From NCBI GenBank assembly GCA_013314755.1, contig JABUFA010000016.1, positions 1 to 64,000 on the forward strand: 64,000 bases of DNA, in the 5' to 3' direction. Source of the stretch: Chthonomonadia bacterium. GTDB taxonomy: Bacteria > Armatimonadota > HRBIN16. Positions 49,921 through 56,637 of the stretch are shown here, piece after piece. The notes below the pieces were generated by a model. That model searched no databases. It saw nothing but the letters and a program-made list of their open reading frames with translations, and was not told where the DNA came from. The number at the start of each line of letters is the position of its first letter. Positions within the stretch are counted from its first letter, which is position 1. A program made the translations under genes and the position numbers.

Positions 49921-49949
49921 TTGACAATTTCACTCTTATCCTATATATT
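49921..49949 (+). promoter_or_regulatory. Sigma-70 promoter of the porin-cytochrome cluster
   Basis: A perfect TTGACA (49921-49926) and TATATT (49944-49949) are 17 bases apart. The predicted start near 49956 gives a leader of about 100 bases, long enough for post-transcriptional control. No known riboswitch is recognised. Confidence 0.8.
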
Positions 49950-50054
49950 TAGAGTAGTGAACAAGAAAACTACAGTAGATTGACTTCAGTTGTATATGCT
50001 AACTTTTTCGCACAGTCGCGGTACGACAAAACTTGTGCTACTGGGAGGAGCTCC

Positions 50055-51044
50055 GTGAACGCGCAAAAACGTTGGCTCTATCTGAGCGCAGTTGCCCTGG
50101 CGTTGCTGATGGCGGTGACCGTTGTGGCAGAGAAGGAACAGCAGAAGGCAGTGCCCTACCCGCTGAGCCTCTTTGCCCAAGCAACGCCCGACGACTACAT
50201 GGGTGAAAAAGACTGCGCCGAATCGGGATGCCATTACCCCCATGCCGATAACTTCAACCGCTCGCCGCACGCGCCCTTTGTGCGCAATCCCAAAATGCCC
50301 ATCGATAAACAGGGCTGTGAATCGTGCCATGGTCCGGCGAATCCCCACCTGGAAGACCCAACCAAAATCTTCAGCTACAGCCAGTCCAAACCCGCCGATA
50401 TCGCCGCGATGTGCCTGCGCTGTCATGCCGACACCATGCGCCTTTCGCAGTGGCATCGCACCCAGCATGGCAAGGCGGACGTCGCCTGCACCGCGTGTCA
50501 TCAGATTCACTGGCAACCGCACAAAGAGCCTCCAGCACGCGGACTGATTAACCTCGGCAGCCTGCGTTCACCTCAGACGGAGAAGGAGCCGCAACCCCGC
50601 CGCCTGCTGAAGTTTGACGACCCCATCCTGTGCAGTCAGTGCCACCAGCGTCAGGCGAACGAGTTCCGGCTCAACTTCCACCACCCCGTGCCCGAGCGCA
50701 GGCTGGAGTGCAGTGAATGCCACGAGGCGCACCCCAGCAAGGCGGCGCAGAAGCGGTTCCGCCCCATTAAGGAGATGTGCGTCAGCTGCCATCCCGACAA
50801 AGCGGGACCCTTCGCCTACGAGCACGACCCCGTGGCTGGCTGGAGCGGCGAAGGATGCACCGAGTGCCACCGGGCGCATGGCTCGCCCAACCCCAAACTG
50901 CTCAACGTTTCATCCAGGGGATTGTGCACACAGTGCCACACCGACAAGTCCGCCACGCACTATCCGGGACGCACCTGCTGGATGGCGGGCTGTCATGGTG
51001 CGGTGCACGGCTCCAATTCCGACGCATTCCTGCGTCGTCCATAA
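50055..51044 (+). CDS. mtrA: Periplasmic decaheme cytochrome c, MtrA/DmsE/PioA type
   Basis: The 329-residue protein has a signal peptide (residues 1-25). Eight CXXCH heme sites (CESCH, CLRCH, CTACH, CSQCH, CSECH, CVSCH, CTECH, CTQCH) lie between two CX4CH sites (CAESGCH first, CWMAGCH last), ten in total. The order, spacing and neighbourhoods (GCESCHGPANPH, KADVACTACHQIH, CHGAVHGSN) follow Shewanella MtrA closely. MtrA threads an outer-membrane barrel and carries electrons across it. The start is GTG at 50055 with GGAGG six bases before; the longer reading to 49980 covers the leader. CX4CH at both ends is unusual for this family. Confidence 0.92.
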   Translation: MNAQKRWLYLSAVALALLMAVTVVAEKEQQKAVPYPLSLFAQATPDDYMGEKDCAESGCHYPHADNFNRSPHAPFVRNPKMPIDKQGCESCHGPANPHLEDPTKIFSYSQSKPADIAAMCLRCHADTMRLSQWHRTQHGKADVACTACHQIHWQPHKEPPARGLINLGSLRSPQTEKEPQPRRLLKFDDPILCSQCHQRQANEFRLNFHHPVPERRLECSECHEAHPSKAAQKRFRPIKEMCVSCHPDKAGPFAYEHDPVAGWSGEGCTECHRAHGSPNPKLLNVSSRGLCTQCHTDKSATHYPGRTCWMAGCHGAVHGSNSDAFLRRP

Positions 51045-51065
51045 GACAGGGGGAGGTAAGACGCA

Positions 51066-52769
51066 ATGGACGACCGTTACAATGCTGGATTAGCCGATAG
51101 GTTCGCCCGATTACTGATTGTGGGGGCACTGGCATGTGCCTGCCTGGGGTTCACCGCGCCGCTTCAGGCACAGGTCACCCCACCCTCCGAGCAGGAGACA
51201 CAGGCGCCTCCCGAATCCCCGCAAGCGCCACTGCCACCTCCGCCCAAACCGGTATCCATCGACCTGGGCTGGTCATGGTGGAATGTGGATGGCAACCTTG
51301 CCAAGTTTCGACAGTACGCCACCCCGCCAAACAGCAGGTTCCTGCGCGAACTGCGCTACATCTCGCCCTTCTGGCGCACCGGCGATAACCTGCGCCTGCA
51401 ACTCTGGAGCCCCACCGAAGACGACTACAGGCTGGAAGGCAACCTGTCCTTCGGCTTCGGGGCTACCCGCATCGAGGCATGGACCACCCGCAACCGGTTC
51501 ATCACGCCGGTGCCCGAAGTCCTGCCCATCAGCGAGCGTAGCGTCACCGAGTCCTTCATCAAACAGTCGATAACCCCGGACTTTGCGGTGTTCGTGCGAT
51601 ACCGCCAGGATGGGCAAAACCACTACCTGCAGACCCCGCGCACGCCCCTGCTGCAAAACACCCGCTACTGGGACGCGGTCGCGGAAGGCAGGTTCGGCAA
51701 CGGACAGCTCAGCATCGGCTACACCGACTGGCGATACTTTGACCGCACCAATACCTTCCCCGACACCGGCATGGAACGCTGGCACGCACGCTATCTGTGG
51801 GAGGTGAACCCCAACCTGACGATAGAGGGGACCCTTGCCCGCATGGAGATACGCCAGCAGAACCGCCCAAGCAGCCAGATGGACACCATCAACCTTGCCA
51901 GTGACATCATGCTGAGCAGTGCGACGGAGCTGGCGCTGTCGTTCCAGCAGGACAAAATCAGCCTGCCGGTGGTGCAAAACGCCTACCTGCGCGAGCGCCG
52001 AAGCACCAGCGCCCTGCTCATCCATCGCTGGAACCGCTGGAGCCTGCAGATGGGCGTACGCCAGCGTGAAGGGGAGCGCGTGCGTGCCGACCAGAGCTTC
52101 GTCGATGTGCCACGCTGGTGGACGGTGGAAGGCAGGCTGTGGGGCAGGCTGAACCGACAGCTGCGCCTGACGGTACGCGGCTGGGATGAACGCCTCAACG
52201 ACCCACCGGTGTTCGTCGGTACCGACACCCGCTCGCTCTACTGGGACAACAGGCGGTTCGCGCAGGTAAAGGTAGATGGCGGCACCGAGGTGTTCAACGG
52301 ATACCTTGCCTACACCTACCGGCGGTGGGCGAACGGCGCACGCGCCGTCGCGCTCAACATGAATGGTGTCACCCTGGGCGGCACGTGGACACCCAGCGAC
52401 AGGCTCAGCCTGTTTGCCGAGTACTCCACCGAGGCATGGACGGCACGCAGTGAGGTCACCCAGCTGCCCACACTGGCTAACTTCGTGCCGAACAGCCGGG
52501 TCAGCACAGTGGGGCTGAACTGGAGCATCAACAGTAAGGCTACCCTCAGCCTCAGCTACACAAACTTCGTGACCGATAACGACAATCCCCTCCTGCTGAG
52601 GGACGCCAACACCGAAGGGCGGTTCTTTACCGCCAACTTGAACTACCAGCTGCCGTCAGGCTATGAGCTCACGCTGACCATCGCCCCATGGACCTACCAC
52701 GACAGGGTGGACAGCCTGATGGACTACGACACACATCTGGTGCTTCTATCGTTAAGCGGACGATACTAA
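51066..52769 (+). CDS. Outer-membrane beta-barrel, MtrB/PioB-like porin of a porin-cytochrome complex
   Basis: The 567-residue protein has a signal peptide (about residues 1-36, ending LQAQ) and a proline-rich linker. The remainder is a series of alternating amphipathic strands with turns, for example DNLRLQLWSPTEDDYRLEGN and NGQLSIGYTDWRYFDR, and ends in an aromatic residue after SLSGRY, as outer-membrane barrels do. I see no CXXC near the N-terminus, which many MtrB proteins have. GGGGAGGT precedes the ATG, 21 bases behind the decaheme gene. By analogy it sheaths the MtrA-like cytochrome. Confidence 0.85.
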   Translation: MDDRYNAGLADRFARLLIVGALACACLGFTAPLQAQVTPPSEQETQAPPESPQAPLPPPPKPVSIDLGWSWWNVDGNLAKFRQYATPPNSRFLRELRYISPFWRTGDNLRLQLWSPTEDDYRLEGNLSFGFGATRIEAWTTRNRFITPVPEVLPISERSVTESFIKQSITPDFAVFVRYRQDGQNHYLQTPRTPLLQNTRYWDAVAEGRFGNGQLSIGYTDWRYFDRTNTFPDTGMERWHARYLWEVNPNLTIEGTLARMEIRQQNRPSSQMDTINLASDIMLSSATELALSFQQDKISLPVVQNAYLRERRSTSALLIHRWNRWSLQMGVRQREGERVRADQSFVDVPRWWTVEGRLWGRLNRQLRLTVRGWDERLNDPPVFVGTDTRSLYWDNRRFAQVKVDGGTEVFNGYLAYTYRRWANGARAVALNMNGVTLGGTWTPSDRLSLFAEYSTEAWTARSEVTQLPTLANFVPNSRVSTVGLNWSINSKATLSLSYTNFVTDNDNPLLLRDANTEGRFFTANLNYQLPSGYELTLTIAPWTYHDRVDSLMDYDTHLVLLSLSGRY

Positions 52770-52784
52770 GGGAGGGCAAGGACG

Positions 52785-53897
52785 ATGAAAGCCACAAGAA
52801 ACTGGTTGATGGTGAGCGGAACGCTCGTCGCTGCTGCCGCGATATTCCTGCTGTACGGATGTGGTGGCTCCGAAACCAGGGAGACCACCCTGTCCATCAA
52901 CGAGACGTTCCGTACCAGCCTGCACGCCACACGACTGGGCAAAGCCACCTGGTACAGCAGAGCAAACGGAGGCTTTGAAAGCCTCACCAACATCCCTATC
53001 ACCAGCATGACCTGCATGAGGTGTCACCCGGGCACCAAAGCAGACGGAACACCCATTGACCCGGCGACCTACCAGCCCGGCTGCGATGACTGCCACACCA
53101 GCCCGGGCTCGCCCGTCAGCGACCAGACATGCCTGAAGTGCCACAGCCGACAGGCGCGAGAGATGCAGTTCTACACCGACGTGCACCGGCAAAAGGGCTT
53201 CCGCTGCATGAGCTGCCATACCCTTGAGGACGTGCACGGCGATGGAACACAGTACGCTTCCTGGCTGGACGAGGGAGCCGTGAAGGTCAAGTGCGAACAC
53301 TGCCACCGCTCGCTTGCCAGCAACACGGCGCACGATATCCACAAAGAGGACGTGGACTGCACAGCCTGCCACACCCAGTCCATCGTCTCCTGCTACAACT
53401 GCCACCTGCAGAGCGAGATTCAGGGCGACGTGAAGCGACCGCATACCGTGTTGAAGGATTACATGTTGCTCCTGCGTCGCAAAGGAAGCGGCAAGGTGTA
53501 TTCCGGCACCATCATGACCCTGAACTACAACGACAAAACCTTCCTGGCGGTGGCACCGTATCGCGCGCACACCATCGCGAAGAACGCGCGCAAGTGCGAA
53601 GACTGCCATGACAACGCGGTGATTCGCGAATACAATCAGACGGGCAACATCACCCTCACCCGCTGGGATGGCTCCAAGATTGTGAACACGAAGGGCGTCA
53701 TCCCGGTGCCGCCCGACTGGCAGACGGCGTTCCAGCTGGACTTCGTGGACTACACGGGTGACCCCGCGTCGCCCACCACAGACCCCACGAAATGGGTGTT
53801 CCTGAAATCGGGAGCAGACGGCAAGCAGATGCTCTATGCCGAACCTTTGACCGCCGAGCAGATGCAGAAGATCTCTCGGTCGGTGAGTTCACCCTGA
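52785..53897 (+). CDS. Octaheme cytochrome c lipoprotein (first)
   Basis: The 370-residue protein has a lipoprotein signal peptide with cysteine in FLLYGCGG. It carries eight CXXCH sites (CMRCH, CDDCH, CLKCH, CMSCH, CEHCH, CTACH, CYNCH, CEDCH), all between residues about 80 and 275, with a C-terminal heme-free region of about 95 residues. It lies 15 bases behind the barrel gene with GGGAGGG in front. In characterised systems the lipoprotein of the cluster sits on the outer surface and passes electrons to external acceptors. It is not clearly MtrC or OmcB-like by sequence as far as I can judge. Confidence 0.85.
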   Translation: MKATRNWLMVSGTLVAAAAIFLLYGCGGSETRETTLSINETFRTSLHATRLGKATWYSRANGGFESLTNIPITSMTCMRCHPGTKADGTPIDPATYQPGCDDCHTSPGSPVSDQTCLKCHSRQAREMQFYTDVHRQKGFRCMSCHTLEDVHGDGTQYASWLDEGAVKVKCEHCHRSLASNTAHDIHKEDVDCTACHTQSIVSCYNCHLQSEIQGDVKRPHTVLKDYMLLLRRKGSGKVYSGTIMTLNYNDKTFLAVAPYRAHTIAKNARKCEDCHDNAVIREYNQTGNITLTRWDGSKIVNTKGVIPVPPDWQTAFQLDFVDYTGDPASPTTDPTKWVFLKSGADGKQMLYAEPLTAEQMQKISRSVSSP

Positions 53898-53931
53898 CGC
53901 AGTATCGTGCATGTCAAAGGAGGTCAAGCAT

Positions 53932-55407
53932 ATGCACAAAAAACGCACTCTTTGGCTGGCGGGGCTTTCGCTGGCGCTGGCAGTAGCGGTAATCGCGCTG
54001 GAGGGGTGCGGTGGAGGTGGCGGACCGTTGACTCCGCCTCCCGGCGGCACGCCTTCACCCTCTTCGCGCTTCACCGAGCTCCTGCCAGCCGCACAGAAAG
54101 ACGCCAGCTATGTGGGTTCCGAACAGTGCGCCACCTGCCACGGCGCAGGTAGCCGCCAGACGAGCGTGGAGCCGGTGGCGGTCGCCTGGGCGAAAACCAA
54201 GCACGCCTCCGTGAACGTCGGCTGTGAACAGTGCCACGGTCCCGGAAGCAAGCACGTGCAGGCGCCATCGAAAGAGAACATCCTGACCTTCCCGAACGTC
54301 GCCAGCTCGGTGGTGTGTGCCCAGTGCCATGGCACCATCGGAGCCGACTACGAGCAGTCAGGTCATGCGGGAGCGGTGGAAGAGGTTATCGAGGAAGCAG
54401 AAACCAACCCCAACGTCTACGGTAAAACCTGCTTCCGCTGCCACAGCGCGCCCTTCCGCGCCCAGATGGTGGACAACAAACTCTCCTATGGGCAGTCGCG
54501 CGATAGCATTGACGCAGGCATTCAGGCGATGAGCGCGGACGCGATTGTGGAAATCGCTCATGCCACCCACGAAAGCGCATCCTGCGTCTCGTGCCATGAC
54601 CCGCACCGCCAGACGGGCAACCTGACATGGAAGGGCAAGGAGGTGCAGCTCCGGCGTGCCGTGCTGAACACCGACACCACCGACATCGCACCGGGCGCTC
54701 CGGCGAAACAGCACACCACCGCCAACCAAATCTGCGGCTCGTGCCACAACGGACGCGGTGGAAACCCGTCGGACACCGCCCTGAACACTGGAACCGTGCG
54801 GGTCAACTTCCACTACAGCAACCAGTACAACATGCTGCTGGGCATCACCGGTGTGGAAGGTCCGTCGGGACCCGTGGTGCGCAACACCGCTCATGCCACC
54901 GCTCCGGGACAGTGCAGTCACTGCCATGTGGCGAACGCACGGCATACGTTCACCGTGAGCTACGACACCGGTTGTACGCCGTGCCACACCGCAGCGGACG
55001 CAGCGGCGCGTGCTCAGGCGACCAAGAGCCAGATCGAGCAGGCTCTGCTGGCGTTGCGCTCGCGATTGCAGGCATGGTCGCAGCAGACATTCGGTGACCC
55101 CGACCTGTGGGACTACACCAGCTACATCCAGGCGCTGGGCAAAACCGCTCCGCCCCAGTCCCAGGTGCCCATCGAGGTCAAGCGAGCACGCCATAACTAT
55201 CGCTTCGTGCTGAACGACAAGAGCATGGGCATACACAACGCGGCGTACGCTCGCTATCTGATCGAGGTGGCGAACCAGAACCTGGACAACCTGGGGGTTG
55301 GCGGCAATTCCCGTGCGGCGAACCTGTCGCCTGCACAGCGGCGTGCCATTCTGGAGTCAGATCTGCAGAGGCAGAGAAAAGCTCTGCTGAAGGGGCTCGA
55401 GGAATAG
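53932..55407 (+). CDS. Octaheme cytochrome c lipoprotein (second)
   Basis: The 491-residue protein has a lipoprotein signal with cysteine in VIALEGCGGG and a proline/glycine-rich tether (PLTPPPGGTPSPSS), which suits surface exposure. Eight CXXCH sites (CATCH, CEQCH, CAQCH, CFRCH, CVSCH, CGSCH, CSHCH, CTPCH) lie before residue about 360; the last 130 residues are helical and heme-free (RSRLQAWSQQTFGDPDLWDY onward). AAAGGAGG precedes the ATG at 53932. A strong terminator follows, so it closes the operon. It may be a second terminal reductase or a shuttle to the first. Confidence 0.87.
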   Translation: MHKKRTLWLAGLSLALAVAVIALEGCGGGGGPLTPPPGGTPSPSSRFTELLPAAQKDASYVGSEQCATCHGAGSRQTSVEPVAVAWAKTKHASVNVGCEQCHGPGSKHVQAPSKENILTFPNVASSVVCAQCHGTIGADYEQSGHAGAVEEVIEEAETNPNVYGKTCFRCHSAPFRAQMVDNKLSYGQSRDSIDAGIQAMSADAIVEIAHATHESASCVSCHDPHRQTGNLTWKGKEVQLRRAVLNTDTTDIAPGAPAKQHTTANQICGSCHNGRGGNPSDTALNTGTVRVNFHYSNQYNMLLGITGVEGPSGPVVRNTAHATAPGQCSHCHVANARHTFTVSYDTGCTPCHTAADAAARAQATKSQIEQALLALRSRLQAWSQQTFGDPDLWDYTSYIQALGKTAPPQSQVPIEVKRARHNYRFVLNDKSMGIHNAAYARYLIEVANQNLDNLGVGGNSRAANLSPAQRRAILESDLQRQRKALLKGLEE

Positions 55408-55421
55408 CGAGGTCAACGTTT

Positions 55422-55454
55422 GGGGCGACCCGGTGGGGTCGCCCCTTATTTTTT
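55422..55454 (+). terminator. Intrinsic terminator of the porin-cytochrome operon
   Basis: GGGGCGACCC-GGTG-GGGTCGCCCC is a 10-bp perfect stem followed by TTATTTTTT. Its tail overlaps the stop codon of the convergent apgM gene. Confidence 0.95.
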
Positions 55455-56637
55455 ACCGAAACAGCCGTTCAATCAATCGCCAGCCTTCGTCCACACGGAA
55501 CCTGGTTTCCTCTACCGCGCTTTCGTCAAAGGTCAGCGACGCACCGCGCGACAGGTCCTCGCGCGAGTCGTACAGCATGAACGGCACAGCGCCGTTGCGG
55601 TGCGTTCGGATGGCGACGGGCGTGGCGTGGTCAGGCAGGACAAGAAGCCGGTAGTCGTGTTCGCGCAAGCCGTCCACCACCTGCGCCACGATATGCTCGT
55701 CAATCTGCTCCAGCGCCCACACCTTCGCTTCGGGGTCGCCCTGGTGCCCCGCCTCGTCAGGAGCCTCCACGTGGATAAACACAAAATCGTGCTTCTCCAG
55801 CATCCGCAGGGCATACGCGCCAATAGCGCGGTAGTCGGTGTGCAGATAGCCCGTCGCTCCCGGCACATCCGGCACCTCCAGCCCCGCCGCCCGTCCGATG
55901 CCTTTCACCAGGTCCACCTCTGCCACCACTGCCCCCGTCACTCCAAAGCGCAGCGCAAACGACGGCAGCTGCGGCGCCCGCCCCTGCCCCCAGGGCCATA
56001 CCATGTTGGCAGGCGGTTTGCCCTCGTCGCGTCGGCGGCGATTGATGGGGTGCTCATCCAGCAGATTCAGCGAATCCTCGATCAGGCGGCGCAGCTTCTC
56101 CTCGCCTTCGCCCTCCGGCAGGTGCTCCTCCCATCTCTCCCCAACCACATCGTGCGGCGGAGTGCACCGAATATCCACCGGTCCCTCGTGCCATACCATC
56201 ACGTGCCGGTATCCCACGCCCGGAAAGAAACGCCAGTAGCGCGTGCCCAGCTTCTCGTCCACCAGCCGAATGAGGGGATGGGACTCCTCGTTGCTGATGT
56301 TGCCCGCGCTGTGGTCGGTGATGTGCTCCCCATCCGTGCTGATGAGCGAGCATCGGAACGCCACGTCTCTCTCTTCCAGCGAGATGCCCATTGCCAGTGC
56401 CTCTAACGGTCCCCTGCCGGTGTAGTAGCGACGCGGGTCATAGCCCAGAATCGCCATGTTGGCCACGTCACTGCCCGGATACATATCGGGCGGGACCGTC
56501 CACACCGCGCCAATCAGCGAGCGCTTCGCCAGCGCGTCCAGATGTGGGGTGTTCGCGCGCATCTTGGGCGTCCTGCCGTTCCACTCTGGCAGGGGGTCAT
56601 CTGCAAACCCATCAGGCACCAGCAGAACATACTTCAT
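55453..56637 (-). CDS. apgM: Cofactor-independent phosphoglycerate mutase, archaeal type (ApgM)
   Basis: The 394-residue enzyme interconverts 3- and 2-phosphoglycerate in glycolysis. It belongs to the alkaline-phosphatase fold: VLLVPDGFADDP with the metal aspartate, TVPPDMYPGSDVANMAILGYD holding the catalytic serine in GSDVAN, IHVEAPDEAGHQGD, and LPDHATPV for the second metal. Length fits the family (about 400). It is 17 bases behind the GH130 gene on the same strand and ends inside the terminator of the cytochrome operon. Confidence 0.93.
   Translation of the reverse strand: MKYVLLVPDGFADDPLPEWNGRTPKMRANTPHLDALAKRSLIGAVWTVPPDMYPGSDVANMAILGYDPRRYYTGRGPLEALAMGISLEERDVAFRCSLISTDGEHITDHSAGNISNEESHPLIRLVDEKLGTRYWRFFPGVGYRHVMVWHEGPVDIRCTPPHDVVGERWEEHLPEGEGEEKLRRLIEDSLNLLDEHPINRRRRDEGKPPANMVWPWGQGRAPQLPSFALRFGVTGAVVAEVDLVKGIGRAAGLEVPDVPGATGYLHTDYRAIGAYALRMLEKHDFVFIHVEAPDEAGHQGDPEAKVWALEQIDEHIVAQVVDGLREHDYRLLVLPDHATPVAIRTHRNGAVPFMLYDSREDLSRGASLTFDESAVEETRFRVDEGWRLIERLFR

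Follow-up and report, generated by a model that had tools for sequence, protein, structure and literature searches.

An operon on the + strand of the window (the whole 64,000-nucleotide stretch of DNA that was analysed, to which all unprefixed positions refer) most likely encodes a conduit that carries electrons through the outer membrane for extracellular electron transfer, with the flow most likely outward; we put the probability of this reading at about 0.82. The cluster unites a predicted outer-membrane barrel with periplasmic and lipoprotein multiheme cytochromes, which is the porin-cytochrome architecture that the original prediction had proposed. Reading of the sequence from 49921 to 55455 placed a promoter-like site, four tightly packed genes (designated A to D) and a terminator on the same strand (Table 1). 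Each gene is preceded by a purine-rich ribosome-binding site, the A/B, B/C and C/D gaps measure 21, 15 and 34 nt, and the terminator stem starts 15 nt past the stop codon of D. One promoter, four close genes and one terminator had been predicted and all were located, the promoter by consensus alone. Since the scan as a whole was not above chance (2 promoter-like sites found versus 1.4 expected), the assignment of the TTGACA-17-TATATT sequence as the operon promoter is suggestive only. Within the genus, purifying selection acts on each of the four genes, most strongly on A (dN/dS of 0.02–0.05, compared with 0.07–0.14 for B, C and D).

Table 1. Features of the predicted conduit operon, in window positions
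Feature	Position	Strand	Basis
Sigma-70-like promoter, TTGACA-17-TATATT (suggestive)	49921..49949	+	Consensus scan alone, 11/12 positions match
Ribosome-binding site GGGAGGAG, ahead of the GTG start of A	50043..50050	+	Sequence
A: predicted periplasmic decaheme cytochrome, MtrA/DmsE/GSU2203 superfamily, 329 aa, GTG start	50055..51044	+	Heme motifs, profiles
B: predicted outer-membrane beta-barrel, ~26 strands, MtrB fold, 567 aa, no curated family	51066..52769	+	AF2 model, Foldseek
C: predicted octaheme lipoprotein, 370 aa, confined to the genus	52785..53897	+	8 CXXCH, lipobox LLYGC
D: predicted octaheme lipoprotein of 491 aa, related to OmhA/OcwA; proposed terminal cytochrome at the surface	53932..55407	+	8 CXXCH, lipobox ALEGC
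Strong intrinsic terminator with a stem of 10 bp, 9 of them GC, a 4-nt loop and a T-tail	55422..55455	+	Sequence scan

A carries eight CXXCH and two CX4CH motifs, and C and D carry eight CXXCH motifs each, for a sum of 26. Residue-shuffled versions of the proteins had a mean of ≤0.1 CXXCH each and a maximum of 2, and within the 64-kb window A, C and D are the only frames with multiple CXXCH motifs. The first heme motif of A (residues 54–60, positions 50214–50234) is CX4CH genus-wide, other families having CXXCH there; its last CX4CH is kept across the phylum and aligns with a CXXCH of MtrA-type proteins. Because both CX4CH motifs fall where relatives have ordinary heme motifs, the assignment of ten predicted hemes to A, and of 26 to the operon, is well supported. 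The 26 hemes of the original prediction are thereby confirmed by motif count, shuffling and the alignment of the CX4CH motifs of A.

Pfam searches matched doubled-CXXCH domains in A. Its best NCBIfam models were GSU2203 (187.4 bits, cut-off 325) and DmsE/MtrA (176.1 bits, cut-off 192.2); the cut-offs tested were those of TIGR03508 and NF041028, and neither was passed. A family profile built on 25 relatives aligned over the full length of MtrA from the solved Mtr structure (6r2q_A; residues 18–327, E=5e-61), consistent with the MtrA-like decaheme cytochrome foreseen at the outset. Judged from these profiles, A, which is single copy in the genome, is a divergent full-length MtrA relative that falls outside curated NCBIfam membership. 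The deposited name of chain 6r2q_A, cystathionine beta-synthase, is a mislabel.

B gave no sequence match in Pfam, NCBIfam or the PDB, with the family profile included in the searches. A search of this genome for canonical MtrB (PF11854) found no match, and HMM-HMM alignment of B to two Armatimonadota barrels of the PF11854 type detected nothing (hhalign probability <1%). The missing Pfam and NCBIfam matches together with the hhalign result rule out membership of B in PF11854 (MtrB/PioB) by sequence. The AF2 model, obtained with an alignment of 22 relatives, shows a barrel of ~26 strands (pLDDT 86.5), and its top PDB match in Foldseek is MtrB (6r2q_B; E=5.8e-12, TM 0.69/0.61), with TonB-dependent receptors ranking below (TM about 0.37–0.52). 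The prediction of an outer-membrane barrel thus held, the 567-residue protein being modelled as a large barrel. Our best reading of the model is that B is a counterpart of MtrB by fold and gene context, not by sequence. As sequence comparison detects no homology between B and MtrB/PioB, the likeness in fold could be convergence among large barrels. A second, weakly PF11854-like barrel found in genus-mates (loci L114 and L117) was set aside, as no heme genes lie beside it in the stretch read.

C and D, the two different octaheme lipoproteins of the original prediction, each combine eight CXXCH motifs with a lipobox. When the two were compared, they were alike only in the signal region and in generic heme spacing. 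The lipobox cysteine of D (Cys26) is invariant in 24 relatives. Against the PDB, the D family profile matched OmhA (E=1.1e-21) and OcwA (E=1.5e-16), compared with a multiheme background of 1e-5 for MtrA and 1e-4 for NrfA. A moderate-confidence model of D (pLDDT 72) is almost wholly helical; OmhA is its first fold match and OcwA follows, at a TM of about 0.4, and MtrC structures are absent from the matches. The profile and model comparisons support a relationship between D, which is single copy in the genome, and the OmhA/OcwA surface terminal reductases of Gram-positive iron reducers, and its lipobox and relatives suggest that it sits on the outer face. Neither C nor D matched the OmcA/MtrC model TIGR03507, in keeping with the claim that the operon has no recognisable MtrC homologue, and D is assigned to OmhA/OcwA instead. 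Eight hemes, no TIGR03507 match, a helical model and no MtrC fold match rule out D as an MtrC/OmcA protein. The MtrC-domain model PF22113 proved unspecific, its cut-off being passed by some D relatives and by MtrA-type proteins too. C is present at 8 other loci of the genus (nine genus genomes were aligned) and absent at the inspected loci outside it; its match to NCBIfam ExtM is weak (E=2e-12, far under the cut-off), and a PDB search found no solid relative of known structure.

With the barrel profile, B-type barrels were found in 76 of 291 Armatimonadota genomes and 43 of 156 genera, with one match in this genome. Barrels 77–84% identical to B occur in hot-spring MAGs, among them Bacterium HR16 (HRbin16), which places the host in HRBIN16 and so within Armatimonadota, the affiliation on which part of the original prediction was conditional; more distant carriers are named Armatimonadetes, Chthonomonadaceae and Fimbriimonadaceae. 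The GTDB-wide barrel scan used one peptide pattern and does not imply a restriction to Armatimonadota. B adjoins A, a full-length MtrA relative, at all inspected loci that reach it, and the order A-B-D is found at nearly every inspected locus whose contig extends far enough. Exceptions include L153, L155 and L158, which are without D, and L150, whose octaheme-like gene is only weakly D-like; at L156 (1581–9774), two tandem decaheme-barrel pairs are followed by one D-type octaheme gene. The conserved unit across the phylum is A-B-D, and the four-gene form with C is genus-specific. The extension of the known range that had been foreseen applies to a predicted conduit without MtrC in Armatimonadota; at the loci inspected, the four-gene form does not reach beyond the genus. 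A contig titled Methanoregulaceae archaeon (JADZEW010000016.1) is nearly identical to a Fimbriimonadaceae locus, their CbcL-like neighbours being 91% identical, and is probably misbinned. Other Armatimonadota carry canonical PF11854-type decaheme-barrel pairs, which form a separate family (L116:7751–11240, E about 1e-102; L107:784–3531, E=3e-11).

The original prediction had also proposed looking for an inner-membrane quinol donor elsewhere in the genome, of the CymA, CbcL or ImcH type. CymA/NapC (PF03264) gave no match in this genome at E≤0.1; a CbcL-like gene, defined as one that joins a multiheme c7-type domain to a membrane domain of the b561 type (PF01292), was found on another contig (contig C50, L073:6097–10935), where it clusters with genes for a Rieske protein and a cytochrome b-multiheme fusion. 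The cytochrome b is fused to a multiheme tail of 15 CXXCH motifs, and the CbcL-like protein (679 aa) has 11 CXXCH motifs and the b561 domain (PF01292, E=8e-14). This cluster would be a candidate quinol donor feeding the conduit. Six of the 22 genomes that have both genes carry the CbcL-like gene ≤8 kb from the barrel, and the six linkages fall in six different families (f2, f11, f12, f15, f23 and f32; binomial P about 1e-9, taking the chance per genome as 0.5%). At L149, L151 and L152, A, B, D and the CbcL-like gene all run in one direction, and at L041 a NapC-type heptaheme gene also adjoins the conduit and CbcL-like genes. From genome to genome, the barrel and the CbcL-like gene show only a moderate tendency to occur together (Fisher P=0.002, and P=0.02 with the genus left out; values not phylogeny-corrected). 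The genome encodes cytochrome c assembly proteins and, at three other loci (L072, L074 and L075), a tetrathionate-reductase-family octaheme protein (TIGR04315, E=1e-176), a hydroxylamine/hydrazine-oxidoreductase-like octaheme protein and an NrfA-like protein with CXXCK. This inventory comes from family searches and is possibly incomplete; a pattern scan of the genome for paired heme motifs returned background only.

We propose that electrons would pass from menaquinol to an inner-membrane complex of the CbcL or Rieske-cytochrome b-multiheme type, whose genes lie in another part of the genome. A, exported and bearing ten hemes, would thread the ~26-strand barrel B to form a heme wire across the outer membrane, as MtrA does inside MtrB. 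D would dock at the outer face and hand the electrons to an acceptor outside the cell, the likeliest being Fe(III)/Mn oxides, humics, an electrode or partner cells. C, the second octaheme lipoprotein, may widen the outer terminal or link A to periplasmic donors. The direction of flow is not readable from sequence; outward flow is favoured because the relatives of D are OmhA and OcwA and because the conduit has CbcL-like partners. The same conduit might instead run inward, with extracellular Fe(II), a mineral or partner cells as the donor, as proposed for MtoAB/PioAB. MtrA-type conduits operate both ways (PMC8805035), and a Cyc2-bearing HRBIN16 MAG and an MtoAB-like UBA5829 MAG have been interpreted as possible Fe(II) oxidisers (PMC9671151). 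We nevertheless consider inward flow unlikely, given that D resembles surface reductases, that CbcL-like partners recur close to the conduit, and that the genome has further reductase-type multiheme cytochromes (NrfA-like, OTR family and HAO-like).

Two further alternatives change the role of a component. D could be a surface respiratory reductase of the NrfA/octaheme reductase superfamily, fed by A-B and acting on a soluble acceptor such as nitrite, sulfite, selenite or tetrathionate, and weak matches of D to NrfA, octaheme nitrite reductase and MccA, as well as the weak likeness of C to ExtM of the Geobacter selenite/tellurite operon, are consistent with such a role. However, the best relatives of D in both sequence and fold are the metal-reducing OmhA and OcwA, and the CXXCK active-site motif is absent from D but present in the separate NrfA-like protein of the genome, making a soluble acceptor improbable. 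It is very unlikely that B is an ordinary solute-transport barrel and that the cytochromes serve periplasmic respiration with no trans-membrane wire: B is without sequence homology to MtrB and many large barrels also score in its fold search, but MtrB is the top match by a clear margin, A adjoins B at all inspected loci reaching it, and the A-B-D order is kept over great divergence.

Among known systems, the operon is close to MtrCAB of Shewanella (6R2Q), with which it shares adjacent genes, a decaheme cytochrome related to MtrA end to end, a barrel of about equal strand number whose top fold match is MtrB, and a multiheme lipoprotein as third subunit. It differs in that its barrel is without sequence similarity to MtrB, its third subunit is an octaheme OmhA/OcwA relative instead of the decaheme MtrC, and it has the extra octaheme lipoprotein C. 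OcwA of Thermincola potens (6I5B) and OmhA of Carboxydothermus ferrireducens (6QVM) are the best profile and model matches of D and share with it a CHGPG region and a C-terminal GxHN region; they are, however, 9- and 11-heme proteins of monoderms, whereas D has 8 predicted hemes and its gene lies in a predicted conduit operon. PMC7829351 states that the cytochromes of C. ferrireducens have no association with porin-cytochrome complexes. MtoAB/PioAB and canonical PF11854 barrels, including that of L116, also form decaheme cytochrome-barrel pairs but are without a D-type lipoprotein, and PF11854 is unmatched in this genome. The Geobacter Pcc (OmaB-OmbB-OmcB) and Ext clusters resemble the operon in their porin, periplasmic and surface multiheme architecture, in a CbcL-type quinol oxidase and in GSU2203 being the best NCBIfam model for A (187 bits, below its cut-off of 325); heme numbers in Pcc are 8 and 12, and no Pcc barrel model was matched. 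A also approaches the DmsE/MtrA model (176 bits, cut-off 192) of the DmsE-type extracellular DMSO conduit, although the operon has no genes for the Mo-enzyme DmsA/DmsB.

Previous surveys placed MtrCAB in three phyla (Baker et al., PMC8805035) and Pcc in six (Shi et al., PMC4245776), Armatimonadota being named in neither. Iron-related electron transfer in the phylum and class has already been suggested: a hot-spring study of the same class described MtoAB-like genes in a UBA5829 MAG and Cyc2 with multiheme cytochromes in HRBIN16 MAGs, suggesting iron metabolism, and reported no conduit of the present kind (Kato et al., PMC9671151), and a night-active HRBIN16 taxon has membrane-embedded multiheme cytochromes of unknown function (PMC11788075). 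We found no earlier description of the A-B-D conduit in the freely accessible literature. The operon combines an Mtr-like wire, an unannotated barrel family and an OmhA/OcwA-type outer terminal, probably as a functional unit; about a quarter of the phylum carries the barrel and, at the loci checked, the neighbouring cytochrome genes as well. This share of a poorly cultured phylum joins the bacteria predicted to be electroactive. Such conduits escape surveys built on MtrB or Pcc barrel profiles. With an MtrA-type wire joined to an outer terminal of the OmhA/OcwA type, it becomes testable how surface reductases evolved across monoderms and diderms. We tentatively suggest that Armatimonadota may possess a conduit class of their own, with a barrel either separate in origin or diverged past recognition from MtrB/Pcc porins and an outer terminal from the cell-wall reductase lineage of Gram-positive metal reducers; if true, this class would link monoderm surface reductases to a diderm conduit.

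Several Armatimonadota families also contain, close to the conduit and CbcL-like genes, frames of 646–731 residues with 28–32 CXXCH motifs and a single N-terminal membrane anchor (L149:8594–10786, L151:1931–3868 and L115:13544–15568). In the frame at L115 the N-terminal region is of the NapC/NirT type (Pfam E=5e-10), and these proteins are candidates for unusually heme-dense, periplasm-spanning quinol oxidases. At the same locus, a 1010-residue frame (L115:5297–8326) appears to fuse an 11-heme cytochrome to a porin-like barrel, with weak Porin_4 and PF11854 matches, and adjoins 7-heme, CbcL-like and 28-heme genes.
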